The position numbers and the translations under genes are program-made. Of a DNA stretch of 64,000 nt, positions 11,388 through 34,100 are shown piece by piece. Source of the stretch: an uncultured Cohaesibacter sp. (lineage in GTDB: Bacteria > Pseudomonadota > Alphaproteobacteria > Rhizobiales > Cohaesibacteraceae); contig NZ_OY761553.1 of the NCBI RefSeq assembly GCF_963664735.1, positions 1,131,303 to 1,195,302 on the forward strand, read 5' to 3'. How positions within the stretch are numbered: the first letter of the stretch is position 1; the number at the start of each line of letters is the position of its first letter. The notes beneath the pieces were generated by a model. It was not told where the DNA came from, did not search any database, and saw only the letters and a program-made list of their open reading frames with translations.

Positions 11388-13148
11388 TCAATAGACATCC
11401 CGTTGATAGCGATGGGCTTGGGTAAGTGCGGTCATGTAGGCATCGACGGCTGCGTCGTCATATTCACCGTGAAGCTTGATCACCTTGCGAATGGCTGAGT
11501 CAACGTCTGAGGCCATGCGGCTTGCATCACCGCAAATATAGATTGCCGCACCATTTTCCAGCCACTCAAAGAAGGTTGCACCCTCTTTCTCGATGAGGTG
11601 TTGCACATAGACTTTTTCGCTTCCATCCCGAGACCAGGCAAGGCTCAGGTTGTTCAGCAACCCGCTCTCTTGCCAAGCGTGCAGTTCATCCTTGTAAAGA
11701 TAATCTGTCTTTTCATGCTGATCACCAAAGAACAGCCAGTTCTTGCCCTTGGCACCACGCATTTCCCTTTCTTCCAGAAATGCATGGAATGGAGCAATGC
11801 CCGTACCCGGTCCGATCATGATTACAGGCGTCTCATCGTCTTCGGGAAGGTGGAAATGGCCAGAGCGTTGAACATACACCCCTAAACTACCACCAGTAGG
11901 AAGTCTCTTGCCCAAGAACAGGGATGCAACGCCCTCTCGGTCACGATCATTCATTGCGTAGTGCACTTCGCCCACGGTCAGATGAACTTCGCCGGGATGT
12001 TTCTTTGGGCTAGAGGCGATGGAATAGAGACGCGGCTGCAAAGGACGCATGCCATCGACCAGCTTTTGTGGTGAAAGATTGTCGATGCCGGACACTATCA
12101 AGTCATAGATATGAGCGTCCGGGAATGGCAAAGCAACATCCCATTTTTCAAGCGTAGACGGTATCGCCGTGACGATATCAAGTTTGGTCAAAAGGGCGCT
12201 GCGCAATTTGCAGGCTCCATCCTTGAGCTTTACGGTCTCCTTGCCGGTCAAGTGCGCGGCCTTCAGGATATCATTGACAAGAATGGCATCGTTTACCGGC
12301 CAAACCCCCAGAGAATCTCCCACAGAATAGTCCAGATCCTCGCCACCACCGGCAAGCGAAATCTCGATGTGATTGACCGTCTTGGCAGACCCTTCTGCAT
12401 TGAGACACTCTGCCTCTAACAGAGTGGCAAGAAATGGATGTTTCTTGTCAAACTTGGGACCGGCTTCTTCCGGCTCCGGCGCCTGAGCGCTTCCAGCAGC
12501 AGAGGCAAACGGGTCGGAGAGGAAAACAGCCCCTTTCCAGCTGGCGTAGTCATCATCATAGGCTACATCACATTTTACCAAATCGAAGGCGCGCGTGGCT
12601 CCGAGTTCCGCAAGACGGCGATCCAGATCAGTCGCCACATTGTTGAAATTGGGGTAGCTGCTGTCACCAAGGCCACAAACACTGAAATTGAGCGTGGCCG
12701 GAAGGAGGGCAGCATCGTCCGCCATCAGTTTCGCATAGAAATTTCGAGCATTGTCGGTCGGCTCGCCCTCCCCGAAGGTCGCCGCGATGATCAGCAAATG
12801 ATTGATTTTGCTAAGATCCGCCGGATCAATGCTGTCCAGTTCGGCAACATCCGCCTCGAACCCTTGCGACTTGGCGTATTTTCTGAGGTCCTTGGACAGG
12901 GATTCTGCAGTACCGGATTGGGATCCGAACAGAATCGTCAATGCTGTGCCTGCCTCAGGTTCTGAGCTTTTGCCGCTGGCAGCGCGGGTGAAGGCGTAAA
13001 GGCCCGTAAAGAGACCGTTGAGCCACTGGCGTTGTTCTTCATCAAAAGGGGCATCCATGGGGATGAAGGACTGCACGGCGTTGTTAGTCTGTGTTTCGCC
13101 AATCGCCGTGGCGAGATTTTTCAGAATTTGGGTGTCTTGCGAAGTCAT
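11388..13148 (-). CDS. CysJ-like diflavin reductase, probable electron donor for nitrite reductase
   Basis: A 586-residue NADPH-dependent diflavin reductase similar to sulfite reductase alpha subunits. An N-terminal flavodoxin domain starts near LTILFGSQSGTAESL (FMN loop). A ferredoxin-reductase module follows with the FAD motif PRLYSIASSP and the NADPH site MIGPGTGIAPFHAFL. It ends with the CysJ-type tail RYQRDVY. The gene is the last of the leftward nitrogen operon, 35 bases after nirA. A nitrite reductase neighbour and no ferredoxin gene suggest it passes electrons from NADPH to NirA. A role with sulfite reductase cannot be excluded. Confidence 0.85.
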   Translation of the reverse strand: MTSQDTQILKNLATAIGETQTNNAVQSFIPMDAPFDEEQRQWLNGLFTGLYAFTRAASGKSSEPEAGTALTILFGSQSGTAESLSKDLRKYAKSQGFEADVAELDSIDPADLSKINHLLIIAATFGEGEPTDNARNFYAKLMADDAALLPATLNFSVCGLGDSSYPNFNNVATDLDRRLAELGATRAFDLVKCDVAYDDDYASWKGAVFLSDPFASAAGSAQAPEPEEAGPKFDKKHPFLATLLEAECLNAEGSAKTVNHIEISLAGGGEDLDYSVGDSLGVWPVNDAILVNDILKAAHLTGKETVKLKDGACKLRSALLTKLDIVTAIPSTLEKWDVALPFPDAHIYDLIVSGIDNLSPQKLVDGMRPLQPRLYSIASSPKKHPGEVHLTVGEVHYAMNDRDREGVASLFLGKRLPTGGSLGVYVQRSGHFHLPEDDETPVIMIGPGTGIAPFHAFLEEREMRGAKGKNWLFFGDQHEKTDYLYKDELHAWQESGLLNNLSLAWSRDGSEKVYVQHLIEKEGATFFEWLENGAAIYICGDASRMASDVDSAIRKVIKLHGEYDDAAVDAYMTALTQAHRYQRDVY

Positions 13149-13183: not shown

Positions 13184-14923
13184 TTAGTGAGACGTCTCAA
13201 GAAGAGCTGGCAATTGCTCATCTGAGAGTTTGCGCACAAAGGAAAGGAAGCTCTCTCCCGGGCTGCGCTGCTCCAGATAGTTGCCGATCAAGACCTCAAT
13301 GGTTTCATCAACATCTGCCGTTGAGACCGGACCGCATAAAGGCCGCCCAATGCCGCGATCGCCGTCGCTCCCACCGCCAAGAACGACATAGTAACCCTCT
13401 CCGCCATCCGGCATGGTCGCGCCCACAAGCCCAATGTCCCCGATATAGTGCTGAGCGCAACTGTTGGGGCATCCAGTAAGGTGTATGTTGATGGGCTGAT
13501 CAAGCGTGAACCGGCTCTCCAGATGGCGCACAAGCCGTGTTCCATCCTGTTTGGTCGATGCAAGGCCAAATTTGCAGCCCCATTTGCCGGTACAGGCAAC
13601 TGCTCCGGCTGCAAATGCAGTAGCTCGGGTTGCTATACCGGCGTCTTCCAATAGTGATGCTGCAACTGGGACGTCATCAGCAGCAATATGCGGAATGATA
13701 AGGTTTTGCCAAACAGTCAAACGCAGATCATTTTTCCCCTTTTCCATTGCCAGCTGACCTATGATGCGCATCTGTTGTGGCGAAAGGCGCCCCATCTCAA
13801 GAGCAACCCCAACATAGTTGAGAGCGGGATCATTCTGCGGATGAATACCGATATGCCCCTGACGCTGAATGGGGGAACGCGGCGCATCATGGCTGGCATC
13901 CAGACGAATGAAACTGAAGCCAGCCTCGAATTCCGTCAGTTTGGCCTCGGTCATTTCCATGAACCAATCCAGCCCCTTGGCATCGAGCAGATATTTGAGG
14001 CGGGCTTTCTTGCGGTTGGTCCTGTCGGCATGTTCAACAAAAACATGCAACATGGCAGCTCCCGCCATGACAGTTTGCTCCGGAGTGCAGAGCAGACCGG
14101 TATCACGGGCCAGATCCTTATGGCCGGATATGCCACCAAGCAGGATCCGGCAATAGATACCCGGCTCGACACCCGCATCATTCTCGCCAATCCTGACCGC
14201 CTGAAATGAAATGTCATTGCTGTCGCTGACACAGGAAATCTGACCACCACCATCAAAGGATACATTGAATTTGCGCGGCAGGCCTTGCAGTTTACGGGTG
14301 TTGAGCACCAGATTGGAGAGGCGGATTGTGTAAGGTGCCATGTCGATCAGTTCGACAGGGTCAAAACCGGCCGTGGGCGCTGCTGTCATGTTTCGTGCAG
14401 AGTCTGCACCTGTGCCATGGCAGGAAAGCCCGACCGAGTGCAGTTTGTCCATGATCACCAGAACGTCTTTGGGCTGAATTTCCCGCATCTGCAAATTGCC
14501 ACGCGTGGTAATGTGTGCATAGCCGCCGGCATTCTGTTCAGCGATTTCAGCAAGCATCAACATTTGATCTCCGCGCAATTTGCAAGCGGGCAAACGCAAC
14601 CGGAGCATATAGGCGGGGCTGTTAGGCTCAACGTTAAAGAAGCCCCAATGGCGCAGCAAGAATTGATCCAGTCCGGTTGCCAATTCATTGCGGTCGGTCC
14701 AACATTCCAGCTTCATGCGCAAATCATTGGGATGAAGTTGATATTTGGCCAATTCCTCTTTGCACAGATCGTCAACAGGCGTGCCATAGACCATCTCCGG
14801 CTTGGCCTCTTGGCCAGACCCTCCGGAAAAAGCCTCATGCAGATTGAGCTGGGCCATGGCGTCGACAAGATAGGACAATTGCTCGGGGCTGAAGCCTTTT
14901 TTCTTTTCTACCGGGGCATGCAT
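13184..14923 (-). CDS. nirA: NirA-type siroheme [4Fe-4S] nitrite reductase
   Basis: A 579-residue enzyme of the nitrite/sulfite reductase family, expected to reduce nitrite to ammonium with six electrons. Two half-domains are visible, the first with ITTRGNLQMREI. Four cluster-and-siroheme cysteines lie in CTGKWGC and in TGCPNSC near the C-terminus. The TGCPNSC form and the setting (nitrite channel, nitrate reductase, cyanase) favour nitrite over sulfite. It lacks a ferredoxin gene beside it; the adjacent diflavin reductase is the likely donor. It needs siroheme, for which a partial synthase is encoded at 29156. Confidence 0.88.
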   Translation of the reverse strand: MHAPVEKKKGFSPEQLSYLVDAMAQLNLHEAFSGGSGQEAKPEMVYGTPVDDLCKEELAKYQLHPNDLRMKLECWTDRNELATGLDQFLLRHWGFFNVEPNSPAYMLRLRLPACKLRGDQMLMLAEIAEQNAGGYAHITTRGNLQMREIQPKDVLVIMDKLHSVGLSCHGTGADSARNMTAAPTAGFDPVELIDMAPYTIRLSNLVLNTRKLQGLPRKFNVSFDGGGQISCVSDSNDISFQAVRIGENDAGVEPGIYCRILLGGISGHKDLARDTGLLCTPEQTVMAGAAMLHVFVEHADRTNRKKARLKYLLDAKGLDWFMEMTEAKLTEFEAGFSFIRLDASHDAPRSPIQRQGHIGIHPQNDPALNYVGVALEMGRLSPQQMRIIGQLAMEKGKNDLRLTVWQNLIIPHIAADDVPVAASLLEDAGIATRATAFAAGAVACTGKWGCKFGLASTKQDGTRLVRHLESRFTLDQPINIHLTGCPNSCAQHYIGDIGLVGATMPDGGEGYYVVLGGGSDGDRGIGRPLCGPVSTADVDETIEVLIGNYLEQRSPGESFLSFVRKLSDEQLPALLETSH

Positions 14924-14967: not shown

Positions 14968-15411
14968 TTACCAGGCGTTATACTGGAGATACTTGCCGCT
15001 CATTTCGACCTTGACCCTGTCACCCTTGGGATTGGGCACACGGGTCACGCTCATGTCGAAATCGATCGCCGACATGATGCCGTCACCGAATTCTTCATGA
15101 ATCAGGGCCTTCAGCGTCGAACCATAGACACCGACAATTTCATAGAAACGATAGATGCATGGATCGGTTGGAACCGTCTGTTCCCAACTCTTGGTCGGGC
15201 TCTCGGCCAGAATGTCGGCACTTTCAGCCGGCAAGCCCAGCAAAGCCACCAGTTCATTGGCCTTTGCCAGCGGAAAGGCATTCATGCCCACACATGCCGA
15301 ATGGGTGAATACCGGTGACATGCCTATTTTCCCGGCGATATCGGCCCAACTATATCCTTGCTTCTTTTTCGCCTCCAGAATGAGGATGGTCACATCGTCT
15401 TTCGTCATCAT
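14968..15411 (-). CDS. cynS: Cyanase (cyanate hydratase)
   Basis: A 147-residue protein matching CynS over its whole length. Cyanase converts cyanate and bicarbonate into ammonium and CO2 (via carbamate). The catalytic triad is present: R88, E91 (YRFYEIVGVYGS) and S114 (MSAIDF). The N-terminal helical domain (YSWADIAGKIGMS) and the C-terminal decamer-forming domain ending GKYLQYNAW are complete. I choose the ATG at 15411, with AAGGAG 7 bases upstream, over a TTG six bases earlier. It lies between nirA and the kinase-phosphatase gene, so it is co-expressed with nitrite assimilation. Confidence 0.96.
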   Translation of the reverse strand: MMTKDDVTILILEAKKKQGYSWADIAGKIGMSPVFTHSACVGMNAFPLAKANELVALLGLPAESADILAESPTKSWEQTVPTDPCIYRFYEIVGVYGSTLKALIHEEFGDGIMSAIDFDMSVTRVPNPKGDRVKVEMSGKYLQYNAW

Positions 15412-15454
15412 GGTCAAACTCCTTTAGAGCAGTAAGGTTCGGTCATTGGATCGG

Positions 15455-17221
15455 TTACAAGAGATCGGCCAGAGCCAACCCCTGCACCAGACAAAGGAAG
15501 GCCAGAAATCCCGCAACGATGCGCCAGACTTCAATCGGAGCACGATCAAACAGCGGCTTTTTGCGGGCTGGCCTGAAATGAATATTCGGCTTGCGAAGCG
15601 CGCTGGTGAATTCGGAAAGCGCGTCAAATCTGCGGGCAGAAGACGGATGAACCGCCCGCATCAGGGCGTCATCAATCCAGTCGGGAATGATCCGCCTGCT
15701 GCTCACGGCTCTCAGATAACGCAGCTTTTTGCGATCGGATGACTTGCGCATCCGGGAGACTTGTACGCCATAGGGCAGCGCATCGGTGAAAAGCTCATAG
15801 GCGATAACCCCGAGGGAGAAGAGATCAGAGCGCCAGTTGATGGCTTCCCCAGTGTAATATTCGGGGGCCGTATATTGGGCAGTGCCGAGAATTTCGGCAT
15901 CAGCCCCCAGAGGGCCAGCCTCTTGGACACCGGACACATAGGCTGAGCCGAAATCGATGATGGTGACATGCAGATCTGGGCTGACGATGATATTCTCGGG
16001 CCGCAAATCCTGATGCAACATTTCCCGCCGGTGAAAGGCTCTTACACCAGCGATGATCTGCTCGAGAATCGTCCTGATTTGTTCAAAACTTCGCTCTGGA
16101 TTGTCGTGCATCCATTGGCGCAGGGTTTGCCCTTCCACATAATCGGTAATCAAGTATAGGCCGGACCGTTTGGCTTCGGCCTTTGGGGCAGACAGAAGGT
16201 TGGGGCTCGACAATCGCCGAGCAATCCATTCCTCGATCATGAAACGCTGCAGGGCCGCGTCGTCATGCAGCAGTTCGCTTGCAGGAATCTTGATGCAAAC
16301 CTTGCGGCCATCGGACAGTCGCCCGACAAATATTTCAGACCGGTGATTGGCATGAATCTGTCGCAAGATGGATATACCATCCAGCGTATCGCCGACCTTG
16401 AGATCATTGGCGAGCGGGGTGAGCGTCTCGTCCGGAGAGAAGTCAAAGCTTTCCTCATCGATTGCCGCGTCGATCCGAACGATTTGTAGCGTCAAATTAT
16501 CATCGCTGCCATTATTGAGCGCTGTTTGAATAATTCTCTCTGCAATGGCGTCAAAGTCCGGTTCCTCGCCGGCATCCTTGAGCAGAGAGACAAGCAGGTG
16601 CTCATCCCAGAATTCATGCAGTCCATCCGTGGCAAGAAGGAAGATATCACCCTTGGTAAGCCTCTCCTGTCGGTAGTCGATCTCGACCGCAGCTTCAACT
16701 CCTAGTGCGCGGGACAACAGGGTTTGCCCATCACTCATGGTCATACGGTGCTGACGGGTCAAAGGCTCAAGGCAGCCATTTGAAAGGCGCCAAATTCCGC
16801 TATCACCAATATTGAAAATATGCGCGGCTTGCCCCTTGAAAAGCAAAGCCGCAAGCGTTGAGACATAACCCTTGTCTGGATCATAAATGCCCTTGAAACT
16901 GGACTGAGCATAGAGCCAGCTGTTGGTAGCGTTCAGAACGCGGGATATGGCCGTTTTCGCGGTCCATGCATCCGGCGTTGCGTAATAGTCGGATAAAAGA
17001 GAGCGAATTGCTGTCTGAGCTGCTTTGCCGCCATAAGCCGAGCTAGAAATCCCATCTGCCACAGCAAATAGCAGCCCCTTTGTTCTGCGCGTCTTGCCTT
17101 CTGGTATCAGAGCACCATGAAAGTCGTCATTCCGTTCCTTGCGGCCGCACAGCGTCGCCTGACCAAGAGAGATCAGCTCATCACATCTGTTTGGCATATG
17201 ATCCGGATTCACAGACAGCAT
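15455..17221 (-). CDS. Fused PP2C phosphatase and Ser/Thr protein kinase with a C-terminal membrane anchor
   Basis: A 588-residue protein with opposing activities. The N-terminal half is a PP2C-type phosphatase: LFAVADGISSSAYGGKAA, FNIGDSG, FLLATDGLHEFW and NGSDDNLTLQIV carry the metal-binding Asp residues. The C-terminal half is a Hanks-type kinase: KVCIKIPA (Lys), LHQDLRPENIIV (catalytic loop), IIDFGSAY (DFG) and TAPEYYTG (APE). It ends in one hydrophobic segment (IVAGFLAFLCLVQGLAL), so both domains should face the cytoplasm. I start at the ATG at 17221 with AAGG upstream. It sits between the FNT channel and cyanase genes, which makes a nitrogen transporter or enzyme a possible target. Confidence 0.9.
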   Translation of the reverse strand: MLSVNPDHMPNRCDELISLGQATLCGRKERNDDFHGALIPEGKTRRTKGLLFAVADGISSSAYGGKAAQTAIRSLLSDYYATPDAWTAKTAISRVLNATNSWLYAQSSFKGIYDPDKGYVSTLAALLFKGQAAHIFNIGDSGIWRLSNGCLEPLTRQHRMTMSDGQTLLSRALGVEAAVEIDYRQERLTKGDIFLLATDGLHEFWDEHLLVSLLKDAGEEPDFDAIAERIIQTALNNGSDDNLTLQIVRIDAAIDEESFDFSPDETLTPLANDLKVGDTLDGISILRQIHANHRSEIFVGRLSDGRKVCIKIPASELLHDDAALQRFMIEEWIARRLSSPNLLSAPKAEAKRSGLYLITDYVEGQTLRQWMHDNPERSFEQIRTILEQIIAGVRAFHRREMLHQDLRPENIIVSPDLHVTIIDFGSAYVSGVQEAGPLGADAEILGTAQYTAPEYYTGEAINWRSDLFSLGVIAYELFTDALPYGVQVSRMRKSSDRKKLRYLRAVSSRRIIPDWIDDALMRAVHPSSARRFDALSEFTSALRKPNIHFRPARKKPLFDRAPIEVWRIVAGFLAFLCLVQGLALADLL

Positions 17222-17303
17222 TGGCAAAAACCTTGCTTGGTTCCTCTGCAAGGGATCAGGGCATCCAGCGACACCCTGATCCCGCACCTTGAGAGCACCC
17301 TGC

Positions 17304-18140
17304 TTATTCGGCAGGCTCGGCGATTGTGGTCACAGGACGACGGGACGGAGAGGTTTTGAAATGCGTCGCATAGATCATGCCGCCAACGAAGGTGAGACCG
17401 CCCACCAGGTTACCAAGGATCACCGGCAATTCGTTGTAGGCCAGATAGTCAAACCAGGTGAATTGGCCACCCAGCATGATGCCTGACGGGAACAGGAACA
17501 TATTGACGATGGAATGCTCGAAACCGAGATAGAAGAAGACCAGAATGGGCATCCACATGGCCATGATCTTGCCGGACACGGAGCTGGACATCATCGCGGC
17601 AACAACACCGGTGGACACCATCCAGTTGCACATGACGGCGCGAATGAACACGGTCAACATGCCCGCACCACCGGCGGCCGCATATCCCAGCGTGCGTGCC
17701 TCACCGATCTTGCCGATCCTCTGGCCAACATCGTTCGGCTCCTGCGAAAAGCCCATGGTGAAGATGATTGCCATAAAGACGGCCGTTGTCATGGCTCCGG
17801 CAAAATTGCCAATGAAGACCAGCCCCCAGTTCCGAAGCACCCCGCCCCAGGTGACGCCGGAGCGCTTGGCAAGCAGGGCAAGGGGAGCAAGCGTGAATAC
17901 ACCGGTCAGAAGATCAAATCCGAGCAGATAGAGCATGCAGAAGCCGACCGGGAACAAAAGGGAAGCGACGAGGAAATTGCCGGTATTGACGGCAATCGTG
18001 ACAGCAAAAGCCGCCGCAAGCGCCAGAATGGCCCCCGCCATATAGGCACGGATCAGGGTGTCCTTGGTGGACATGAAGACTTTGGCCTCACCAGCCTCGA
18101 TCATCTGGGCGGCAAACTCTGATGGTTTCACATAAGCCAT
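17304..18140 (-). CDS. Formate/nitrite transporter family channel (NirC/FocA type)
   Basis: A 278-residue membrane protein with six hydrophobic segments, typical of FNT pentameric channels for formate, nitrite or related anions. Family landmarks are KDTLIRAYMAGAILALAAAFAV, LFPVGFCMLYLLGFDLLTG with the selectivity-loop glycine region, GNFAGA, and NWMVSTGVVAAMM. Being first in an operon with nirA, it most likely moves nitrite. The start at 18140 has AGGAG 8 bases upstream. Transcription begins about 217 bases upstream and passes through a regulated leader. Confidence 0.92.
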   Translation of the reverse strand: MAYVKPSEFAAQMIEAGEAKVFMSTKDTLIRAYMAGAILALAAAFAVTIAVNTGNFLVASLLFPVGFCMLYLLGFDLLTGVFTLAPLALLAKRSGVTWGGVLRNWGLVFIGNFAGAMTTAVFMAIIFTMGFSQEPNDVGQRIGKIGEARTLGYAAAGGAGMLTVFIRAVMCNWMVSTGVVAAMMSSSVSGKIMAMWMPILVFFYLGFEHSIVNMFLFPSGIMLGGQFTWFDYLAYNELPVILGNLVGGLTFVGGMIYATHFKTSPSRRPVTTIAEPAE

Positions 18141-18226
18141 TGAAAACTCCTGTCAAATTCAAGTCACACATGATGCGCGACTGGGTTTGGCATAAAATTT
18201 TCCGGGTATGACCACTGTCAGGCTTG

Positions 18227-18276
18227 AAAAGGGCGCAAGGTGACAAGACAGCTACCACACAAGGCATGTCTTGCCC
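18227..18276 (-). terminator. Leader terminator of the FNT-nirA operon
   Basis: On the minus strand GGGCAAG (18276-18270) can pair with CTTGCGCCC (18239-18231), with a small bulge. An inner stem, CAAGACA/TGTCTTG, extends it, and TTTTC follows. It lies between the ANTAR target hairpins and the FNT gene, where an attenuator is expected. Confidence 0.6.
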
Positions 18277-18316
18277 TGAAGAGGAAACACCTGGATAGCT
18301 TCATTGCCATATATAC

Positions 18317-18353
18317 CGTCCGCCGTTGGACGCAGTTTGCAGTCAATCTGCAA
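18317..18353 (-). promoter_or_regulatory. ANTAR-target two-hairpin RNA element in the FNT operon leader
   Basis: The transcript should start near 18357. First comes a hairpin with stem TTGCAG/CTGCAA (18353-18337) and a five-base loop ATTGA. After a 4-base linker comes a hairpin with stem CGTCC/GGACG (18332-18317) and hexaloop AACGGC. ANTAR proteins such as NasR and NasT recognise paired hairpins whose loops have A at position 1 and G at position 4; both loops fit, though the first is one base short. Confidence 0.7.
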
Positions 18354-18368
18354 CTTGAATTTACCAAA

Positions 18369-18383
18369 GCAAATGCCGTGCCA
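18369..18383 (-). promoter_or_regulatory. Sigma-54 promoter of the FNT-kinase-cynS-nirA operon
   Basis: Minus-strand TGGCACGGCATTTGC fits the -24/-12 consensus TGGCAC-N5-TTGC exactly. Transcription would start about 12 bases beyond the GC, near 18357, giving a leader of about 217 bases before the FNT gene. RpoN promoters need an enhancer-binding activator; NtrC is the usual one for nitrogen genes. Confidence 0.85.
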
Positions 18384-18599
18384 GATTGAAGCCGGAACAG
18401 CTGCCCTACATGAAATCAATCACTTAAGTTTATCTACGTATCAGCCCAACCTCGAAACCTGATGAGAGGACGTCATTATTTGTTTGAACAAATAGGCAGC
18501 AGGTCGATTTTCTTGCCTGTTAATTAAGCATTAACAGCCAGAATATGGCCCGATATTTATACGGGATGGACCGCCGAACGCTGTTTCTTTCAGCTTTTT
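18384..18599. promoter_or_regulatory. Upstream region with two near-contiguous palindromes
   Basis: Region between the sigma-54 promoter and nasT. It holds TATTTGTT-TG-AACAAATA (18477-18494), a perfect 8+8 palindrome, and CTGTTAAT-TAAGC-ATTAACAG (18517-18537), a perfect 8+8 repeat with a 5-base spacer. Both are AT-rich and sit where activator sites for the leftward operon or the nasT promoter would lie. I found no clear NtrC consensus here. Confidence 0.4.
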
Positions 18600-18629
18600 A
18601 TGATTTGCTCCATGTGCCACATTAAAGGC

Positions 18630-19220
18630 ATGCAGCAATCGGACTTGAAAATTCTCGTCGCAGATGAAAACCGCTCTCGTGCTTCCATTATCAAATTGGG
18701 GCTCATTGAGAACGGCTATTCCAATGTCGAGATCATAACCAGTTTTTCAGGCTTCGCCGCGCTCGTCGAGGCGGTTCAGCCAGATGTCATCGTCGTCGAT
18801 CTGGAGAATCCGCAACGCGATACTCTGGAAGCCTTCTTTGCGCTGTCGCGATCGATCAAGCGCCCCATTGCCATGTTTGTTGACCAGTCCGATCTGACAT
18901 CCATGCAGGAAGCCATAGATGCGGGCGTGTCCGCCTATGTGGTGGATGGCCTGAAAAAGGACCGTGTGCGCCCCATCATGGAAATGGCGATTGCCCGTTT
19001 TCGTGCCTATTCGAAGATGGAAGATGAACTCAAGGAAGCCAGATCCCAACTGAAGGATCGCGACATTCTGGGAAAAGCCAAGCAGATCCTCATCAATCAT
19101 AAGGGCTTGACGGAAGACGAGGCCTACAGGCAAATTCGCACGACTGCCATGAACAAGCAAAAGAAAATGTCCGACGTTGCGCATAGCATTGTACTCGCCG
19201 CAGAAGCGATGGACTTGTAG
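18630..19220 (+). CDS. nasT: NasT, ANTAR-domain antiterminator for nitrate/nitrite genes
   Basis: A 196-residue response-regulator-like protein. A receiver-like domain (LKILVADENRSRA ... DVIVVDLENPQRD) is followed by a C-terminal three-helix ANTAR domain (LGKAKQILINHKGLTEDEAYRQIRTTAMNKQKKMSDVAHSIV). NasT binds hairpin pairs in leader RNA and prevents termination; NasS holds it inactive when nitrate or nitrite is absent. Start codons at 18600, 18612 and 18630 are in frame and none has a strong ribosome site; I choose 18630 because homology starts there. Targets are present in both flanking operon leaders. Confidence 0.9.
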   Translation: MQQSDLKILVADENRSRASIIKLGLIENGYSNVEIITSFSGFAALVEAVQPDVIVVDLENPQRDTLEAFFALSRSIKRPIAMFVDQSDLTSMQEAIDAGVSAYVVDGLKKDRVRPIMEMAIARFRAYSKMEDELKEARSQLKDRDILGKAKQILINHKGLTEDEAYRQIRTTAMNKQKKMSDVAHSIVLAAEAMDL

Positions 19221-19233
19221 GAGCCGGAACGCC

Positions 19234-20463
19234 ATGACCAACTCTCTTTTCCCCATACAGGCTGGCTTCATTCCTCTTAATGATGCTGCAATTCTGATCA
19301 TTGCCAGAGAATGCGGCTTTGCCCAGGAGGAAGGCATCGATCTGCGACTGCAAAAGGAAACAAGCTGGGCCACCCTGCGCGACAAGCTTGCCATCGGGCT
19401 ATTCGACGTTGCCCATATTCTTGCGTCCATTCCTGTCGCTGCCAGTTGCAATCTCTTTCCCTTGCCGCTTGATGTCGTGGTTCCCATGTCGCTCGGGTTG
19501 GGGGGCAATATGATTACCCTGTCACGCGCCATCTGGGAGCGCCATCTGGGCCCTGCGGAAACTGGCGATTTCAGCGCCGGTCAGGCGGGCAAAAATGTCT
19601 CAAGCATCATCAGGATCAGACAGCAGCTCGGGCTGGCCAAACTGAAATTCGGCGCGGTCCATCCCTTCTCCTCCCATAATTATGAATTGCGCTACTGGCT
19701 CGCCGGATGTGGCATCGACCCCGAAGCGGATGTCGATATCGTGTTTCTGCCACCGTCCACCATGCCCGATGCGCTCAGATCCGGCGCAATTGACGGCTAC
19801 TGCGTCGGCGAACCATGGAACAGCAGCGCCATTCTCGATGGAGAAGGATTGCTGCTGACCACCAAATCCCATATCTGGCAATCAAGCCCGGAAAAAGTGC
19901 TGGCCGTTCGCACAAATTTCGCCAAAGAGCAGCAGCAGGCCCATTTCGCTTTGCTAAGAGCGCTCTATAAAGCAGCCCTCTGGATAGAGGATGCCGCCAA
20001 TTTGACTGCGCTTTGCGACATCCTGTCTGCAAATGACTATCTTGGAAAGCCCAGAGACTATCTGGCTGCCGGGTTCAGTGGGGAAATTCGAACCGGCTAC
20101 AGCAAGACACCGACCATCCATATTCCTGACTTCTATCTCTCGGTCTCACGCGCAGCGCTTTATCCATGGAACAGCCACGCCCTTTGGTTCTACAGCCAGA
20201 TGGTTCGCTGGGGTCATGCCCCTTTCAGCGACACGCTGATCGCCAAGGTACGCAAGACCTTCAGCCCTGCCCTTCTCAAGCAGGCACTGACGCCTCTGGG
20301 CATCTCTCTGCCTGTCGCCGAAGAAAAACCTGAAGGTTCTTTCAGCCATGCAAGCGCATTGCCGAGCACGGCAGGAGAGATCAAATTCGGACCAGACCAG
20401 TTTTTCGATGGCCGGATTTTCGATCCAGACGACCTGACCGGCTATCTGGCGAAGCAAAAATGA
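19234..20463 (+). CDS. nasS: NasS, nitrate/nitrite sensor protein
   Basis: A 409-residue protein of the NrtA/CmpA binding-protein family that lacks a signal peptide (it begins MTNSLFPIQAGFIPL), so it is cytoplasmic. Family motifs shared with the NrtA at 20768 include [42 protein letters not shown] and SPEKVLAV. NasS binds nitrate or nitrite and releases NasT. The ATG at 19234 has GGAG at 19220-19223 and lies 13 bases after the nasT stop, so the two are co-transcribed. Confidence 0.92.
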   Translation: MTNSLFPIQAGFIPLNDAAILIIARECGFAQEEGIDLRLQKETSWATLRDKLAIGLFDVAHILASIPVAASCNLFPLPLDVVVPMSLGLGGNMITLSRAIWERHLGPAETGDFSAGQAGKNVSSIIRIRQQLGLAKLKFGAVHPFSSHNYELRYWLAGCGIDPEADVDIVFLPPSTMPDALRSGAIDGYCVGEPWNSSAILDGEGLLLTTKSHIWQSSPEKVLAVRTNFAKEQQQAHFALLRALYKAALWIEDAANLTALCDILSANDYLGKPRDYLAAGFSGEIRTGYSKTPTIHIPDFYLSVSRAALYPWNSHALWFYSQMVRWGHAPFSDTLIAKVRKTFSPALLKQALTPLGISLPVAEEKPEGSFSHASALPSTAGEIKFGPDQFFDGRIFDPDDLTGYLAKQK

Positions 20464-20476
20464 TCTTTATTTGAGC

Positions 20477-20533
20477 AGGTATTTATACCTACGCCCATTC
20501 TTTAGTCACTATTAACTTTTACTCCGGCCGGAG
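20477..20533. repeat. Two palindromes upstream of the nrt promoter
   Basis: AGGTAT-TT-ATACCT (20477-20490) starts 14 bases past the nasS stop. A 12-base perfect palindrome CTCCGGCCGGAG (20522-20533) is flanked by TTTA/TAAA arms. Neither is followed by a T-run, so they are possible protein sites rather than clear terminators. Confidence 0.35.
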
Positions 20534-20596
20534 CGTAAAGTCGAAAAGTAAAAAATTCGGAATATATTTCAGCAGCTTGATTTCAGAACTCGCAAT

Positions 20597-20611
20597 TGGC
20601 ACACCGCTTGC
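20597..20611 (+). promoter_or_regulatory. Sigma-54 promoter of the nrt-nas operon
   Basis: TGGCACACCGCTTGC matches the -24/-12 consensus TGGCAC-N5-TTGC exactly, with the standard spacing between GG and GC. Transcription would start near 20623, only a few bases before the ANTAR hairpins. Confidence 0.9.
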
Positions 20612-20626
20612 AATGCAATAGGCGAG

Positions 20627-20659
20627 TGCTGCAGTGGAGCAGCAGGCCCAACGAAGGGC
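20627..20659 (+). promoter_or_regulatory. ANTAR-target two-hairpin RNA element in the nrt leader
   Basis: Hairpin 1 has stem TGCTGC/GCAGCA and hexaloop AGTGGA (20633-20638). Hairpin 2 has stem GCCC/GGGC and hexaloop AACGAA (20650-20655). Both loops carry A1 and G4, the known recognition bases for ANTAR proteins. The element begins about 4 bases into the transcript and precedes a strong terminator. Confidence 0.88.
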
Positions 20660-20677
20660 AGATATAAAAGGCAACGA

Positions 20678-20737
20678 AGCCATATCGGATTGAATGATAT
20701 CCCCCTCGGATGCATTCACGACGATATGGCTTTTTTT
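20678..20737 (+). terminator. Leader terminator controlling the nrt-nas operon
   Basis: A perfect 10-bp stem (AGCCATATCG at 20678-20687, CGATATGGCT at 20722-20731) is followed by seven T. It lies 30 bases before nrtA, inside the leader. NasT bound to the upstream hairpins would allow read-through. Confidence 0.9.
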
Positions 20738-20767
20738 ATGGATTTTTGACCCTAACAGGAGGCATTT

Positions 20768-22162
20768 ATGCCATTTGCTAGAACGACAAGAAACGCTTTC
20801 CTGCTCTCCCTGGCGATCGCTTCGACCAGCCTGACCAGCCTTGCCCGGGCTGAGATGCTGGACGTGGAAAAAGACGAGTTGAAATTCGGCTTCATCAAGC
20901 TGACGGATATGGCCCCTCTGGCAGTCGCCTACGAGAAGGGCTATTTCGAGGATGAAGGCCTGTTTGTCACGCTGGAAGCTCAGGCCAACTGGAAGGTGCT
21001 GCTCGACCGCACCATCACCGGCGAGCTTGACGGCGCCCATATGCTGGCAGGCCAACCGCTGGCAGCAACCATCGGCTTTGGCACCAAGGCGCATATTGTA
21101 ACGCCATTCTCTATGGACCTGAACGGCAACGGCATAACGGTCTCCAATGAAATCTGGGAGATGACGAAAGCCAATATCCCGACCGGTGCCGACGGCAAAC
21201 CGGAACATCCGATCAAGGCCGACGCCCTCAAGCCAGTTGTCGACAAGTTCAAGACTGAAGGCAAGCCGTTCAACATGGGCATGGTCTTCCCTGTTTCCAC
21301 CCACAATTATGAACTGCGCTACTGGCTTGCTTCCGGCGGCATCAATCCGGGCTACTATTCGCCCACCGACGTGTCCGGCCAGATCAAGGCCGATGCGCTT
21401 CTCTCGGTCACCCCGCCGCCACAGATGCCCGCCACCCTTGAGGCCGGAACCATCTATGGCTATTGCGTCGGCGAGCCATGGAACCAGCAGGCCGTGTTCA
21501 AGGGCATCGGAGTACCGGTCATTACCGACTATGAAATCTGGAAGAACAATCCCGAAAAGGTGTTTGGTCTGACCGCAGAATTCACTGAGGAATATCCGAA
21601 CACCACGCTGGCCATTACCAAGGCCCTCATTCGTGCGGCCAAATGGCTGGATGAGAATGACAATGCCAACCGCATGGAAGCGGTCGAGATTCTCTCCCGT
21701 TCCGAATATGTCGGCGCGGACAAGGAAGTCATCGCCAACTCCATGACCGGCACCTTCGAATATGAAAAGGGCGACAAACGCCCGGTACCTGATTTCAACG
21801 TGTTCTATCGCTATTATGCGACTTACCCCTACTACTCCGACGCAGTCTGGTATCTCTCACAGATGCGTCGTTGGGGCCAGATCCCTGAAGCCAAGCCAGA
21901 TAGCTGGTATGACGAAGTTGCCAAATCGGTTTATCGCCCTGACATCTATCTGAAAGCGGCAAAGATGCTGGTCGATGAAGGCTATGCCGATGAGGCAGAC
22001 TTCCCATGGGATAGTGATGGCTACCGCGAGCCGACCCCTGCAGGCGATATCATCGACGGTGTCCCCTATGACGGCAAGCAACCCAATGCCTATATCGATT
22101 CTCTCACGATCGGCCTTAAGTCCGGAGAGATCGTAGAAGGCAGCAACATCATCACGAAATAG
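20768..22162 (+). CDS. nrtA: Nitrate ABC transporter substrate-binding protein
   Basis: A 464-residue NrtA/CmpA-family receptor. It begins with a signal peptide ([21 protein letters not shown]). Conserved segments are [48 protein letters not shown] and [18 protein letters not shown], the same motifs seen in NasS. It delivers nitrate (possibly nitrite) to the NrtB channel. Ribosome site AGGAGG lies 8 bases before the ATG. It is the first gene of the operon behind the sigma-54/ANTAR leader. Confidence 0.95.
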
Positions 22163-23346: not shown

Positions 23347-25119
23347 ATGACTATTCTGGAAATTTCCAATCTATCGAAGCATTATGGCGAAGGCTCCCAT
23401 CGCAATGATGTCCTGACCGATGTCAACCTGAAGGTCGAAGAAGGCGAGTTCATCGCCATTGTCGGCTTCTCCGGCTCTGGCAAGACCACTCTCATTTCAT
23501 TGCTTGCCGGCCTTATCGAGCCTGACGTTGGCGGCGTCATTTTCAGGGGCAAGGAGATTGACGGCCCAAGCCCGGAGCGCGGGTTGGTGTTCCAGTCCTA
23601 CTCTCTGATGCCCTGGCTTTCGGTTCATGGCAACATCGCCCTTGCCGTCGACAGCGTTCACAAGGGCAAGTCCAAACAAGAGCGTGCTGAACTGGTGGCG
23701 CACTATATCGAGATGGTCGGCCTCAGTCACGCCAAGGACCGTAATCCGTCCGAGCTTTCGGGCGGTATGCGCCAGCGCGTTGCCGTCGCACGCGCTCTGG
23801 CAATGCAGCCAGAAGTGCTTCTGATGGACGAGCCTCTTTCGGCGCTTGATGCCCTGACCCGCGCCAAGTTGCAGGACGAATTTGCAGCCATTTCACAAGA
23901 AGAGAAGAAAACCATCATCCTCATTACCAACGATGTTGACGAAGCTATTTTGCTTGCCGACCGGATCATTCCTTTAACTCCGGGCCCGAATGCAACGCTT
24001 GGCAAGGAATTCAAGGTAAACCTCCCCCACCCGCGAGATCGTGGCGCCATGAATCATGACGATGATTTCATCGCCTTGCGTGCCGCTGTGACTGAATATC
24101 TGATGTCGATCAGCGCCCAGAAAGCAGCTGAACAGCAGGAAGCAGACATTACCCTGCCCAATCTTATACCGATTGAAAAAGCCAGACGCGGCAAGAACAG
24201 ACCGCTGCCAACGGCCTATAGCGACACGGCCCGGTCGGATCGGGAGCAAGGCTATCTCGACTTCAGCCAGCTGACCAAGATCTACCCCACACCCAAAGGC
24301 CCTCTGACGGTCGTCGACGGCTTTGACCTGAAGGTCAACAAGGGCGAATTCATCACCCTAATCGGTCATTCCGGCTGTGGCAAATCGACTGTGCTCTCCA
24401 TGGCCGCCGGTCTCAACCCGATATCGGCTGGCGGCATCATTCTTGATGGCAAGCATATCCAGAGCGCAGGCCCGGACAAGGCCGTGGTCTTTCAGGCACC
24501 GTCCCTGATGCCTTGGATGACGGCGCGGGACAATGTCATGCTCGGTGTCGATGAAGTCTATCCCAAGGCCAGCAAGGCCGAACGGGCGGATATTGTCGAT
24601 TACTATCTTTCCAGAGTAGGCCTTGGCGATAGCCTCGACAGGCTCGCATCGGACCTCTCCAATGGCATGAAGCAGCGCGTGGGCATCGCCCGTGCCTTTG
24701 CTCTCTCGCCAAAATTGCTTCTTCTTGATGAGCCGTTCGGCATGCTTGACAGCCTGACGCGCTGGGAGTTGCAGGATGTGCTCATGGAAGTTTGGGACCG
24801 AACCAACGTTACCACCATCTGCGTTACCCATGATGTTGACGAGGCCATTCTGCTTGCTGACCGCGTTGTGATGATGTCCAACGGCCCACGGGCGCGCATC
24901 GGCAACATCATGGAAGTGGATCTGCCGCGCCCGCGCTCGCGCAAAGAGCTACTCGCCCATCCCGACTATTATGCCTATCGCGAGGAATTGCTTGACTTCC
25001 TCGAAGCCTATGAAGGAGGAGCAGACCCGAGTGAAGATCAGCTCAAATCCATTCAGGAAAAACGTGCCTCTCGTCTTGCGCGCCAACGCGGCGGCCAATC
25101 CAATTGTGCGGCTGAGTGA
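23347..25119 (+). CDS. Fused double ATPase of the nitrate ABC transporter (NrtC/NrtD in one chain)
   Basis: A 590-residue protein with two complete ATPase domains. The first has Walker A GFSGSGKTT, LSGGMRQR and LLMDEPLSALD. The second, after a linker of about 45 residues, has GHSGCGKST, LSNGMKQR, LLLDEPFGMLD and VTHDVDEA. In the first domain the H-loop reads ITNDVDEA: the switch His is replaced by Asn, so the two ATP sites should be unequal. The classical C-terminal NrtA-like domain of NrtC is absent. The start at 23347 follows nrtB closely; a longer in-frame start lies inside nrtB. Confidence 0.92.
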   Translation: MTILEISNLSKHYGEGSHRNDVLTDVNLKVEEGEFIAIVGFSGSGKTTLISLLAGLIEPDVGGVIFRGKEIDGPSPERGLVFQSYSLMPWLSVHGNIALAVDSVHKGKSKQERAELVAHYIEMVGLSHAKDRNPSELSGGMRQRVAVARALAMQPEVLLMDEPLSALDALTRAKLQDEFAAISQEEKKTIILITNDVDEAILLADRIIPLTPGPNATLGKEFKVNLPHPRDRGAMNHDDDFIALRAAVTEYLMSISAQKAAEQQEADITLPNLIPIEKARRGKNRPLPTAYSDTARSDREQGYLDFSQLTKIYPTPKGPLTVVDGFDLKVNKGEFITLIGHSGCGKSTVLSMAAGLNPISAGGIILDGKHIQSAGPDKAVVFQAPSLMPWMTARDNVMLGVDEVYPKASKAERADIVDYYLSRVGLGDSLDRLASDLSNGMKQRVGIARAFALSPKLLLLDEPFGMLDSLTRWELQDVLMEVWDRTNVTTICVTHDVDEAILLADRVVMMSNGPRARIGNIMEVDLPRPRSRKELLAHPDYYAYREELLDFLEAYEGGADPSEDQLKSIQEKRASRLARQRGGQSNCAAE

Positions 25120-25124
25120 ACGCT

Positions 25125-26378
25125 ATGAAAAAGAAGCTCGTCATCATTGGCAATGGCATGGCTCCGGGGCGGATGCTTGAACATTTGTTCGAGATGGACC
25201 CGAATGCTTTCGACGTCACAATTTTCAACGCGGAGCCTCGCGTCAATTACAATCGTCTGATGCTGTCGCCGGTACTATCCGGAGAAAAGACCTATCAGGA
25301 TATCATCACCCATGGCGATGATTGGTACGCCGAGCGCGGCATCACTCTGCACAAGAATGCCAAGGTGACAGAGATTGACCGGATAACCAAGATCGTCCAC
25401 TCGGCCAATGGTATTGAAGCTTCTTATGACAAACTGGTCATCGCTACCGGTTCCAGCCCCTTCATCATTCCCGTGCCGGGACATGAACTTGACGGCGTTC
25501 TTACCTATCGAGACCTTGACGATGTTGAACGTATGCTCAAGGTATCCAAGGATGGTGGTCGAGCCGTGGTAATCGGCGGCGGCTTGCTCGGTTTGGAAGC
25601 GGCTGCCGGGCTGCGCGCCCAAGGCATGGATGTCACGGTTCTCCACCTCATGCCGACACTCATGGAACGCCAGCTTGATCCGACGGCGGGGCTTTTGCTG
25701 GAGCAGGCCTTTCAGGCTCGCGGCATAGATGTCTTAACGCAGGCAAACACCAAAGAAATCCTTGGCGAAGAAGGCAAGGTAGTCGGCATCAGGCTTCAGG
25801 ATGGCACCGAAATCGATGCCCGCATCGTAGTCATGGCGGTCGGTATACGCCCATCCATTACCCTTGCCCAGCATGTCGGTCTGGAGTTCAATCGCGGCAT
25901 TTTGGTCGACGATTACATGCGAACCTCCGATCCCGATATCTTCGCGCTTGGAGAATGCGTAGAACATCGCGGGCAATGCTACGGCCTTGTCGCCCCCCTT
26001 TATGAAATGGGGGCGGTTTTGGCTGAAACCCTGCTAGGCGGGAAATCCCTCTACCATGGTTCAGTAACGGCAACCAAGCTAAAGGTAACCGGCATTGATC
26101 TTTATTCCGCAGGCGATTTTGCAGAAACGGAAGACCGCGAGGAGATCCTTCTGCGAGATGAACATAGCGGCATCTATAAACGCCTCGTCTTGGAAAATAA
26201 CAGGATCGTTGGTGCCGTACTCTACGGAGAAACAGCTGATGGTCCATGGTTCTTCGACCTCCTGAAAAATGAGACTGAAATTTCTGCAATTCGCGAAACG
26301 CTCATTTTCGGTCAGGCCTATCAAAGCGAAACCACTTTGGCTGCGCTCGCCCCGACAGGAGCTTCATCGGCTGGCTGA
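25125..26378 (+). CDS. nasB: FAD-dependent NAD(P)H oxidoreductase, nitrate reductase electron-transfer subunit (NasB-like)
   Basis: A 417-residue flavoprotein resembling the N-terminal part of NirB and NasB-type subunits. It has two Rossmann motifs: LVIIGNGMAPGRMLEHL for FAD and VVIGGGLLGLEAAAGL for NAD(P)H. The FAD-contact motif RTSDPDIFALGEC is present. It probably passes electrons from NAD(P)H to NasA. It lacks the siroheme module, so it is not a nitrite reductase. I use the ATG at 25125; a GTG at 25116 would overlap the previous gene by 4 bases and is a possible start. Confidence 0.85.
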   Translation: MKKKLVIIGNGMAPGRMLEHLFEMDPNAFDVTIFNAEPRVNYNRLMLSPVLSGEKTYQDIITHGDDWYAERGITLHKNAKVTEIDRITKIVHSANGIEASYDKLVIATGSSPFIIPVPGHELDGVLTYRDLDDVERMLKVSKDGGRAVVIGGGLLGLEAAAGLRAQGMDVTVLHLMPTLMERQLDPTAGLLLEQAFQARGIDVLTQANTKEILGEEGKVVGIRLQDGTEIDARIVVMAVGIRPSITLAQHVGLEFNRGILVDDYMRTSDPDIFALGECVEHRGQCYGLVAPLYEMGAVLAETLLGGKSLYHGSVTATKLKVTGIDLYSAGDFAETEDREEILLRDEHSGIYKRLVLENNRIVGAVLYGETADGPWFFDLLKNETEISAIRETLIFGQAYQSETTLAALAPTGASSAG

Positions 26379-31176: not shown

Positions 31177-34100
31177 TCATAGACCTCTGGCACAGCCATT
31201 GCTGATCAGGCACAGGAATGCACCAGCGTCTTCTATTTCAATATCACCTTGCTCTTGTTGTATTGGAGAAGCCTCTTTTGGACCCTGTCTTTGTCTCTCG
31301 GCAGAGCCCAGAGGTGGAACAATGAGTTCAACCAGCGACGCCGCGCTATTTGCCGGTACGATGCGATTAACAGTCAGAGTACCTGCCTCATAGGTGACAG
31401 TGTAATTGCTCGAGGCAGCGAGAGTTCCTTGTGTGATGGCATAGGTCCCGACTTCAGACATGGCGTGAGCTTCGGTTGCGAGAACTCCCTTCAGGACATC
31501 ACCATTAACGAGGCCAAAGCCACCGACACGATAAGTCAGCGTGCCATTATTGTTGCCATAGCTGCGCCTGAGATCATTCGCCGTGATGGTAATCGCCCTT
31601 TGGGTAATAGTCAGGGTGCCTGCATTATAGCTTACGGCGTAGTTGTTCGACGCTGAAAGCGTGCCTTGGGTAATAGCATAGGTCCCGACATCAGCCTCCC
31701 CCCCTGCCGATGTGAGCGCTCCGGTCAGGCGGTCCCCATTGGCGAGCCCTGATCCGCCGACGCTGTAAGTCAGCAAGCCATTGTCGTCACCGTAGATGCG
31801 GCTGAGATCATCGGCGGTGATGGTGATGGCGCGGGCCGTAATGGTCAAAGTGCCCGCATTATAGCTGATGGCGTAGTTGCTCGATGCTGTTAGCGTGCCT
31901 TGGGTAATGGCATAGGTGCCGACATCAGCCGTAACCCCTACCGATGTCAAAGCGCCGGTCAGGCCGTCACCATTGACGAAGCCAGAACCACCCACTTTGT
32001 AGGTAAATGTTCCGTTGCTGTCGCCATACGTGCGACTGTCGTCATCGGCAGTAATGGTGATTGCGCGCGCAGTTACGGTCAAGGTGCCTGACTTATAGCT
32101 GATGGCATAATTGCTCGATGCTGAAAGCGTGCCTTGGGTGATGGCATAGGTGCCGACATTAGAGGTGGTGTCGGCTGTTGTTGTCAGTGCCCCTGTCAGG
32201 CTGTCACCATTAACAAGGCCCGAACCACCCACGTTGTAGGTAAACGTGCCGTTGCTGTCGCCATAAGTGCGGCTGTCGTCATCGGCAGTAATGGTGATAG
32301 CGCGGGCAGTCACAGTAAGCGTGCCAGCAGTAAAGGCTGTGATATTATAATTGCTCGATGCGGCAAGCGTGCCCTGGGTGATGGCAAAGGTGCCAACGTC
32401 AGTGGTGGTGTCGGCTGTTGTTGCTAGTGCTCCGGTCAGGCTGTCACCATTAACAAGGCCCGAACCACCCACGTTGTAGGTAAACGTGCCGTTGCTGTCG
32501 CCATAAGTGCGGCTGTCGTCATCGGCAGTAATGGTAATAGCGCGAGCTGTCACCGTAAGCGTGCCAGCTGTGAAGGCCGTAATGCTATAATTGCTCGATG
32601 CAGCAAGCGTGCCCTGGGTAATGGCATAGGTGCCAACGTCAGAGGTGGTGTCGGCTGTTGTTGTCAGTGCTCCGGTCAGTGTATCACTATTGGCAAGGCC
32701 TGATCCGCCCACCGTATAGGTAAGTGTGCCGTTGCTGTCGCCATACGTGCGGCTGAGATCATCTGCCGTAATGGTGATAGCGCGAGCTGTGACGCTCAAG
32801 GTGCCAGCAGTATAGGTTACGGCATAATTGCTTGATGCTGCGAGGGTTCCTTGCGTTATTGAATAGGTGCCGACATCAGACGTGCTGTCTGCCGTAGTGG
32901 CCAGACTGCCGGTCAAACTGTCATCGTTGACCAAGCCATCTCCGCCCAATTTGTATGACAGCGAGCCATTGGTATCGCCATAGGTGCGGCTGAGATCATC
33001 TGCCGTAATGGTGATGGCGCGGGCTGTGACGCTCAAGGTGCCGGCCGTATAGGTCACATCATAATTGCTTGAGGCAGAGAGTGTGCCTTGAGAGATGGCA
33101 TAATCTCCAACGCTTGAGGAAGAAACCGCCGTTGTTGTTAGTGTTCCAGTCAAGCTGTCACCATTGACCAAGCCAGATCCGCCCACAGTATAAGTAAGCG
33201 TACCGTTGGTGTTGCCATAGGTGCGGCTGAAGTCATCGGCAGTAATCGTGATGGCGCGGGCCGTAACGGTTCTGTTTATCGCGCCATAGGTAAAGACACG
33301 ATAAGCAACCCCGTTTGAACTTTGAACAGTGCTGTTGCTGGTCGTCATGTCTGACGTTGTCGTTCCGACTGACGTGGTGGGGTCAACAGAAAACGTATCG
33401 CTGTTCAAGGTCAGACTGTCGTCGCTATCTCCAAAGACATAGGTATCTGTACCCCCTGCCGATACAATAGATGACACGGTAGCCGAGCTTTCGCCATAAG
33501 CAGATTTGATATTGAGGCCCTCAAACCAGACTACGGGCGTGACCGCATAAAGCTCAGGATAGTATCCATCGCTGGGCGGGGCCCAGACATTGTCGAAATC
33601 CCAATCCGTAGCCAACGCCATGAAAGTGGCGGTATTCTGAAACTGCGTAGTCGTCAACCCGGTAGCATCAATCGTTGAAGCGGTTGAAATTTTTCCCGCC
33701 GCCGTGGATTGCTCTGTAGTTGTTTTATTCCAGAATGAATTCCGTATCGTAACACCGGCTGCCAAACCAACAAGACCACCGAGTCCACCCATAAGCTGTG
33801 TACTTTCAACTTGGCCAGTGGCATAGCTGTACTCAATGGTACTAGAATTGGCCTTACCGACGAGGCCTCCAGCATAATTGGTAGCGCTCACATCCCCGCT
33901 GGCATAACTATTTGAAATAACGCTATTGGTGTCAGCCAGACCGACCAAGCCTCCGACATACATGTAATAGGTCGCAGAGACATCACCAGAGGCGTAGCTT
34001 GATGTAATTGTTCCCTTTAGCTTACCAACAAGCCCCCCGATATAATCATCGCCGTAAACAGAAGCCATAGCATAGCTGTTTGAGACGTCCCCAACGCTGA

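Follow-up and report, generated by a model that had tools for sequence, protein, structure and literature searches.

ANTAR proteins are known to serve multi-unit regulons, with matches to their target RNAs before nitrate and nitrite transporters and nitrite reductase (Ramesh 2012, PMC3369931). According to the accessible parts of the respective papers, (i) NasT serves several targets in Bradyrhizobium, among them nirA, which has a predicted hairpin in front of it (PMC6759348); (ii) nirBD of Pseudomonas is preceded by a leader controlled by sigma-54, NtrC and NasT (review PMC12830290); (iii) NasT of Paracoccus binds the nasA leader, for which an effect of the leader hairpin has been shown (PMC3795266, PMC5424462); and (iv) EutV contacts the G4 of its target, not the A1 (PMC8934654). 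Several targets per ANTAR protein, and leaders that combine sigma-54 with NasT, are already known. The same kind of partial source reports a cyanate–nitrate connection in Pseudomonas pseudoalcaligenes (PMC6627978) and, in Dechloromonas, a nasA/nirBDC cluster near a nasDEFT cluster, with cynS among nitrogenase- and urea-associated genes (PMC2907700).

We analysed a window of 64,000 nucleotides (i.e. the whole stretch of DNA) from an uncultured Cohaesibacter sp. Judged from sequence, its minus-strand operon (FNT, PP2C-kinase, cyanase, NirA and a CysJ-like flavoprotein) is quite probably a second target of NasT through a leader with two hairpins, H1 and H2. The genes concerned are:

17304–18140, minus strand: formate/nitrite transporter, FNT/NirC-like, first gene of the operon (PF01226; TIGR00790 below cut-off)
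15455–17287, minus strand: PP2C phosphatase–protein kinase fusion (PF13672 + PF00069)
14968–15417, minus strand: cyanase CynS (TIGR00673 above cut-off, PF02560)
13184–14923, minus strand: NirA-family nitrite/sulfite reductase (NF007126 above cut-off, 640 bits; the CobG model passes too, 318)
11388–13148, minus strand: CysJ-like flavoprotein (domain and family profile searches)
18600–19220, plus strand: NasT, receiver + ANTAR (PF00072+PF03861), the sole ANTAR protein detected in the genome
19177–20463, plus strand: NasS, NMT1-like nitrate-binding protein (PF13379); the start is that of the longest ORF and the true start is probably later

The order FNT–PP2C-kinase–cyanase–NirA–CysJ is kept in the genome of the window (G000, 4.9 Mb) and in the congeners G001 and G008, and G016 has the same order minus cyanase; a further congener with FNT, G014, is nearly identical to G000 and was read at the leader and FNT only. 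NirA is the sole gene with a siroheme reductase (NIR_SIR) domain detected in G000, and the CysJ-like flavoprotein is likely its electron donor. In the plus-strand operon, the NirB-like flavoprotein (25116–26378) is only 420 aa long and has no NIR_SIR domain. The plus-strand nitrate reductase therefore seems to rely on the minus-strand operon for the further reduction of its nitrite. The split of NirB in this genome may have gone along with a takeover by NirA–CysJ.

Reductase content differs among the relatives. G008 and G016 have, besides NirA, a NIR_SIR match in an 850- and an 834-aa frame of the nas cluster, respectively, and G014, very close to G000, carries a further NIR_SIR gene. In G000 itself we detected no separate sulfite reductase: NirA alone carries NIR_SIR, although a PAPS-reductase-family gene is present. 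The translated PP2C-kinase contains HQDLRPEN and DFG, which we take to be kinase motifs, and a hydrophobic C-terminal stretch that looks like a membrane anchor; its gene adjoins that of the FNT channel.

From the sigma-54 element to the base preceding the FNT start codon, the upstream region measures 243 nt (18141–18383, minus strand). Its main features, and the corresponding promoter on the other strand, are:

18369–18383, minus strand: sigma-54 −24/−12 element TGGCAC-N5-TTGC, exact match
18337–18353, minus strand: H0, 5'-terminal hairpin TTGCAG-AUUGA-CUGCAA with a pentaloop
18317–18332, minus strand: H1, ANTAR hexaloop hairpin CGUCC-AACGGC-GGACG, equivalent of the published P1
18296–18309, minus strand: H2, ANTAR hexaloop hairpin UGGC-AAUGAA-GCUA, equivalent of the published P2
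20597–20611, plus strand: sigma-54 element of the nrtA operon, exact match

The "perfect sigma-54 promoter" of the original prediction is indeed there. The element is of the −24/−12 type TGGCAC-N5-TTGC that defines such promoters, and its position puts the inferred start site at ~18357 (minus strand). Exact copies of this motif occur three times in the window versus 0.23 expected: two stand before the two leaders, and the third, at 31188 (plus strand), is antisense inside a 2023-aa ORF. The element is seen at all five FNT loci of the genus, G008 having the version TGGCAC-N5-ATGC. A sigma-70 plus terminator scan gave zero minus-strand sites.

The leader consists of three hairpins, not two. H1 and H2 both carry A1/G4 hexaloops (AACGGC and AAUGAA) on stems of at least 3 bp, and the stems are 7 nt apart (18316–18310) versus 5–12 nt in eut leaders; with an ANTAR protein, NasT, detected in the genome, these are the features of an ANTAR substrate RNA. 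H2 also matches the eut core GCAANGRRGCU, as given in the accessible part of PMC3369931. Rfam at the gathering threshold has no match anywhere in the window, and a permissive Rfam scan of 18100–20800 returned aceE-II alone, far under its cut-off. A block CCCGGAAAATTTTATGCCAAACCCAGTCGCG at 18176–18206 (minus strand), ahead of the FNT ribosome site, is kept in G014, G001 and G016 (one change) and could hold a putative short leader peptide (MPNPVA...).

FNT is present at 93–100% identity in five of the 18 genus genomes (G000, G014, G001, G016 and G008); the relative in a sixth genome, G006, at only 33%, was left uncounted. All five have the leader, i.e. promoter and H1/H2, before FNT. We counted identical alignment columns over four species (G000, G001, G016 and G008), excluding G014 as nearly identical, and found 14/16 for H1, 14/16 for H2, 5/17 for H0, 4/8 for the linker and 19/87 for the stretch after H2. 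The counted segments outside H1/H2 are thus 22–50% identical; the value of 4/15 for the −24/−12 element is an underestimate, as the G008 row is without the first six promoter bases. In G008, H1 is preserved through a C-G to U-A change at the base of the stem. H1 and H2 can also be aligned with nrtA leaders of the order. In an alignment of 11 leaders, which were picked for showing the hairpins, the pairing holds in 98.9% of cells, and none of 500 shuffles reaches the covariation score; results are weaker for both-side-changed pairs (23/500 shuffles) and further pair types (103/500).

This conservation bears on the possibility that the operon is under sigma-54/NtrC alone, i.e. responds to general nitrogen limitation, with the hairpins being incidental. 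The exact −24/−12 element would fit, as would a survey whose accessible part includes cyanate lyase among sigma-54-controlled genes of alpha- and gammaproteobacteria (PMC12316311). However, H1 and H2 are conserved amid diverged neighbouring sequence, a pair of the H1+H2 type appears in only 1/1000 dinucleotide shuffles of the 500-nt upstream region (with a detector written after H1 and H2 had been seen), and A1/G4 hexaloops are in excess in stand-alone FNT leaders (see below). We therefore consider control by sigma-54/NtrC alone improbable.

The same comparison decides which hairpins form the recognition pair. The original prediction had named two A1/G4 hairpins, one with a pentaloop, as the NasT site and held that the pentaloop would test the limits of the hexaloop rule. 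Both hairpins exist (H0 and H1), but they were wrongly paired: the conserved pair is H1+H2, and H2 was missed although it lies inside the stretch covered by that prediction. Recognition of H0+H1 could draw on the H0 loop AUUGA having A1 and G4, on another pentaloop (AUCGA) in G034, a genome of another family, and on A1/G4 ranking first among the hexaloop classes in the 60 nt 5' of H1 (13/68 leaders; next class 5). Yet the H0 loop reads AUUGA in G000 and G014, CGAGGU in G001 and UGUGU in G016, and differs in sequence in G008, so that A1 is lost in G001 and G016; 55/68 leaders have no A1/G4 hexaloop with a stem of at least 5 bp in those 60 nt; and H2 is both present and conserved. An H0+H1 recognition pair is hence very improbable, and H0 appears to be an accessory hairpin whose loop is not conserved. 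The hexaloop rule is unchallenged, because both members of the conserved pair are ordinary A1/G4 hexaloops. We also rejected a general triple-hexaloop rule, in which H0 would be a third NasT site, since it would fit only 13/68 leaders.

We searched for further leaders with covariance models. Model R1, built from all 11 leaders and trained on both leaders of the window, has only two strong matches across the 4.9-Mb genome (42.3 and 41.6 bits), each of them a training member. The next site (23.5 bits, L051) was rejected because it lies on the antisense strand of a transporter ORF, apparently a CydD-like one. A leave-out model, made from seven nrtA leaders of other genomes without nirC or own sequence, scores the nrtA leader of the window at 29.1 bits (E 3e-5), the minus-strand (nirC) leader at 20.7 (E 0.0033) and the next site in the window at 17.4 (E 0.021). 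Applied genome-wide at E 0.05, it recovers the nrtA leader of the window but misses all five nirC leaders of the genus.

The protein side points to a single partner. A receiver+ANTAR protein stands beside an NMT1/NrtA-like sensor, which identifies a NasS/NasT system, and since NasT is the lone ANTAR protein found, it would be the partner of the minus-strand leader if this leader is an ANTAR target. The FNT operon and nasT are on separate contigs in G008 and G016, where NasT would hence have to act in trans. Two strong model matches and the conservation of H1/H2 uphold the proposal of a second ANTAR-target leader before the minus-strand operon, and with a single ANTAR protein detected, the idea that one NasS/NasT pair serves two operons is plausible. 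NasT control of the minus-strand operon is thus likely.

We also inspected the wider distribution of such leaders. R1 matches at E ≤0.003 occur in 54 of 297 genomes of the order. On 85 loci, R1 gives 76 matches at E 1e-4, of which 70, training members included, were kept after dropping five duplicates and L186, the G014 nirC leader, whose sequence equals that of G000. The first recognised gene 3' of these 70 matches is NrtA (35), the NasB/NirB flavoprotein (17), FNT (5), NasA (1) or NasS-like (1), and the other 11 have no query gene within 2.6 kb downstream. In G034 the order is nasT–nasS–leader–FNT–NasB–(unlabelled stretch)–cyanase–CysG. Devosia ureilytica (L119) has three ANTAR leaders, at 1394, 6018 and 12224, before nrtA, nirB and nasA of one nas cluster.

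In none of the best 80 of 584 FNT loci does R1 match directly upstream of FNT (0/80). Five of these 80 (L098, L099, L103, L138 and L150; Stappia, Labrenzia and Roseibium) hold FNT–kinase–cyanase in a run that starts with nasT–nasS or nasS, followed by nrtABC, and R1 matches upstream of nrtA in each of them (E 0.00062 or better). Dropping L129 (too little upstream sequence) leaves 79 usable loci from the best 80, of which 54 stand behind a nas gene and 25 are stand-alone. Within 450 nt upstream of FNT, at least two A1/G4 hexaloop hairpins with a stem of at least 5 bp occur in 13/25 stand-alone versus 1/54 in-operon loci, and at least one in 20/25 versus 6/54; the two groups are not phylogenetically independent, because the stand-alone loci are mostly Rhodobacteraceae or kin, and the in-operon upstream sequence is coding. 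In the same loci, no comparable stand-alone excess is found for the other 15 loop classes (the nearest is G1/G4, at least one in 11/25 versus 16/54), and G1/C4 loops are in excess the other way (6/25 versus 34/54). One NasT relative each was found in 19 of 20 genomes with stand-alone FNT loci, in a search that took 21 of the 25 stand-alone loci (all but L121, L136, L154 and L156), minus L155.

How NasT would act on the minus-strand leader is a separate matter, for which the nrtA leader provides the reference. The relevant structures are:

20644–20686, plus strand: nrtA leader H1+H2 (H1 20646–20659, H2 20670–20681), from the leader model
20722–20737, plus strand: classical terminator in the nrtA leader, U-run and 3' arm, with the 5' arm overlapping H2, from the fold
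18227–18230, minus strand: UUUU run of the originally proposed terminator, weak, absent in G001 and G016
18250–18256, minus strand: GGTAGCT, which can pair with AGCTATC (18294–18300) in a stem that excludes H2, candidate attenuator, from the fold

Strong U-tract terminators (−28.9 to −44.3 kcal/mol) are present in all nine nrtA leaders examined, i.e. those of 16 NrtA loci where the hairpins were seen. The own nrtA leader has the P2 hairpin overlapping an intrinsic terminator with a U-tract that characterizes ANTAR transcription attenuators; the minus-strand leader does not, a moderate candidate being found in G000 and G014 only. The terminator of the original prediction is not supported: the GCCC arm of its GGGC...GCCC stem is unpaired in the fold, the tail is merely UUUU, and none is strong or conserved. 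The best U-rich-tailed candidates 3' of H2 reach −16.0 (G000), −17.4 (G014), −13.1 (G001), −9.1 (G016) and −10.0 (G008) kcal/mol, and no strong or conserved U-tract terminator was found in these five genus FNT leaders.

When the transcript is truncated at the U-run, five of the seven pairs of the competing stem (18294–18300/18250–18256) have probabilities of 0.83–0.85, excluding H2; in the full-length leader, the competing stem has a probability of 0 and H2 of only 0.03. The numbers of shuffles that score as low for the competing pairing are 12/500 (G000), 3/500 (G014), 415/500 (G001), 231/500 (G016) and 105/500 (G008), i.e. among the five genus FNT leaders it is above chance in G000 and G014 only. 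Two nrtA leaders are also not clearly above chance (L035, 53/500; L036, 71/500), and the other six give 31, 0, 0, 1, 36 and 2 of 500.

An alternative output is that NasT binds H1/H2 and acts via Rho-dependent termination, pausing or RNA stability, not via an intrinsic terminator. H1/H2 being conserved and the U-tract terminator not being so speaks for it, and the accessible part of PMC3369931 allows that matches lacking a terminator may act in another way, for instance on translation initiation. Moreover, among 14 stand-alone alphaproteobacterial FNT leaders checked out of the 25 loci (the H2 position of L174 being set by eye), 11 have no terminator candidate 3' of the hairpins, and C-over-G skew 3' of the hairpins is in the top 10% of same-locus regions in 10/13 stand-alone leaders. 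By contrast, the skew is unremarkable in three of four genus leaders (top 20%, 22% and 32%; G008 0.9%), and terminator candidates are found in L131 (−29.7 kcal/mol), L108 (−20.0) and L124 (−14.2), with strong ones in G034 (FNT leader, −44.2), L134 and L177. In addition, the hairpins of stand-alone Rhodobacteraceae are ~21–35 nt apart versus 5–12 nt for the eut linker, and because of this wider spacing they may not be NasT sites. We regard such an output as possible but doubtful, and classical antitermination as the leading candidate mode.

With antitermination as the preferred reading, the following sequence of events may be proposed: (i) transcription by sigma-54 RNA polymerase, with NtrC as the presumed activator under nitrogen limitation, would start at ~18357; (ii) the nascent leader would fold H0 and then the conserved ANTAR hexaloop pair H1+H2; (iii) nitrate or nitrite would free NasT from NasS; and (iv) free NasT would bind H1/H2 and favour H2 over the competing downstream structure, so that transcription reaches the genes. 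Nitrate would thus induce both arms, that of nitrate on the plus strand and that of nitrite on the minus strand. The output step is the weakest, because a strong conserved intrinsic terminator was not found in the minus-strand leader. A more speculative extension is that the FNT–kinase–cyanase module carries a portable NasT-responsive RNA. Its own A1/G4 leader would tend to be kept or gained outside the nas operon, and in this genus and the Rhodobacteraceae would act mostly without an intrinsic terminator (by Rho, pausing or stability), which would be a new output mode for NasT.

If NasT control holds, nitrite uptake, the lone detected siroheme reductase, cyanase and a kinase-phosphatase would share an RNA switch with nitrate uptake. 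It would then become testable why, in many Proteobacteria, cyanase and PP2C-kinase adjoin nitrite channels. One possible reason is that cyanate, too, may enter through nitrate/nitrite transporters (PMC6627978, accessible part), so that cyanase would be wanted whenever these transporters are induced. The locus also offers two naturally occurring leaders for comparison that probably respond to the same NasT, of which only one has a strong terminator.

The original prediction had presented cyanase and the kinase in the NasT regulon as something not seen described before. Our survey of titles and abstract starts in the open literature, where subscription papers are mostly absent, yielded no report of cyanase or PP2C-kinase as a NasT target; the accessible parts of PMC2907700, PMC12830290 and PMC12316311 contain no cyanase or kinase link to NasT, and cyanase has 0 occurrences in PMC6759348 and PMC5424462. 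That part of the claim stands within this scope, but one pair controlling two operons is not new in kind, judging from the accessible parts of PMC3369931 and PMC6759348.

Compared with known systems, as far as the available parts of the sources describe them, the minus-strand leader resembles the ANTAR dual-hexaloop leaders of eut in Enterococcus faecalis, nasF in Klebsiella oxytoca and amiE in Pseudomonas aeruginosa (PMC3369931) in its two small A1/G4 hexaloop hairpins, short linker and H2 core, but lacks their strong, conserved overlapping intrinsic terminator, has the extra H0 and precedes other genes. Like the Pseudomonas nirBD leader NalA (PMC12830290), it places a sigma-54 promoter and then a NasT-type leader before nitrite reductase genes; here, however, the operon is FNT–kinase–cyanase–NirA–CysJ, divergent from nasTS and beside a second leader. 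NasS/NasT nitrate sensing is shared with the NasT targets of Bradyrhizobium diazoefficiens (PMC6759348) and the nasA leader of Paracoccus denitrificans (PMC5424462, PMC3795266), and several targets for one NasT, with the predicted hairpin before nirA, are shared with B. diazoefficiens; the gene content of the target operon differs from both. The FNT–kinase–cyanase order is also that of the nasS- or nasTS-nrtABC-NirB-FNT-kinase-cyanase-nasA-cysG operons of Stappia, Labrenzia and Roseibium. There the module lies behind nasTS and an R1-matching leader in one gene run on one strand, whereas here it is divergent and set apart, with a promoter and a leader of its own.
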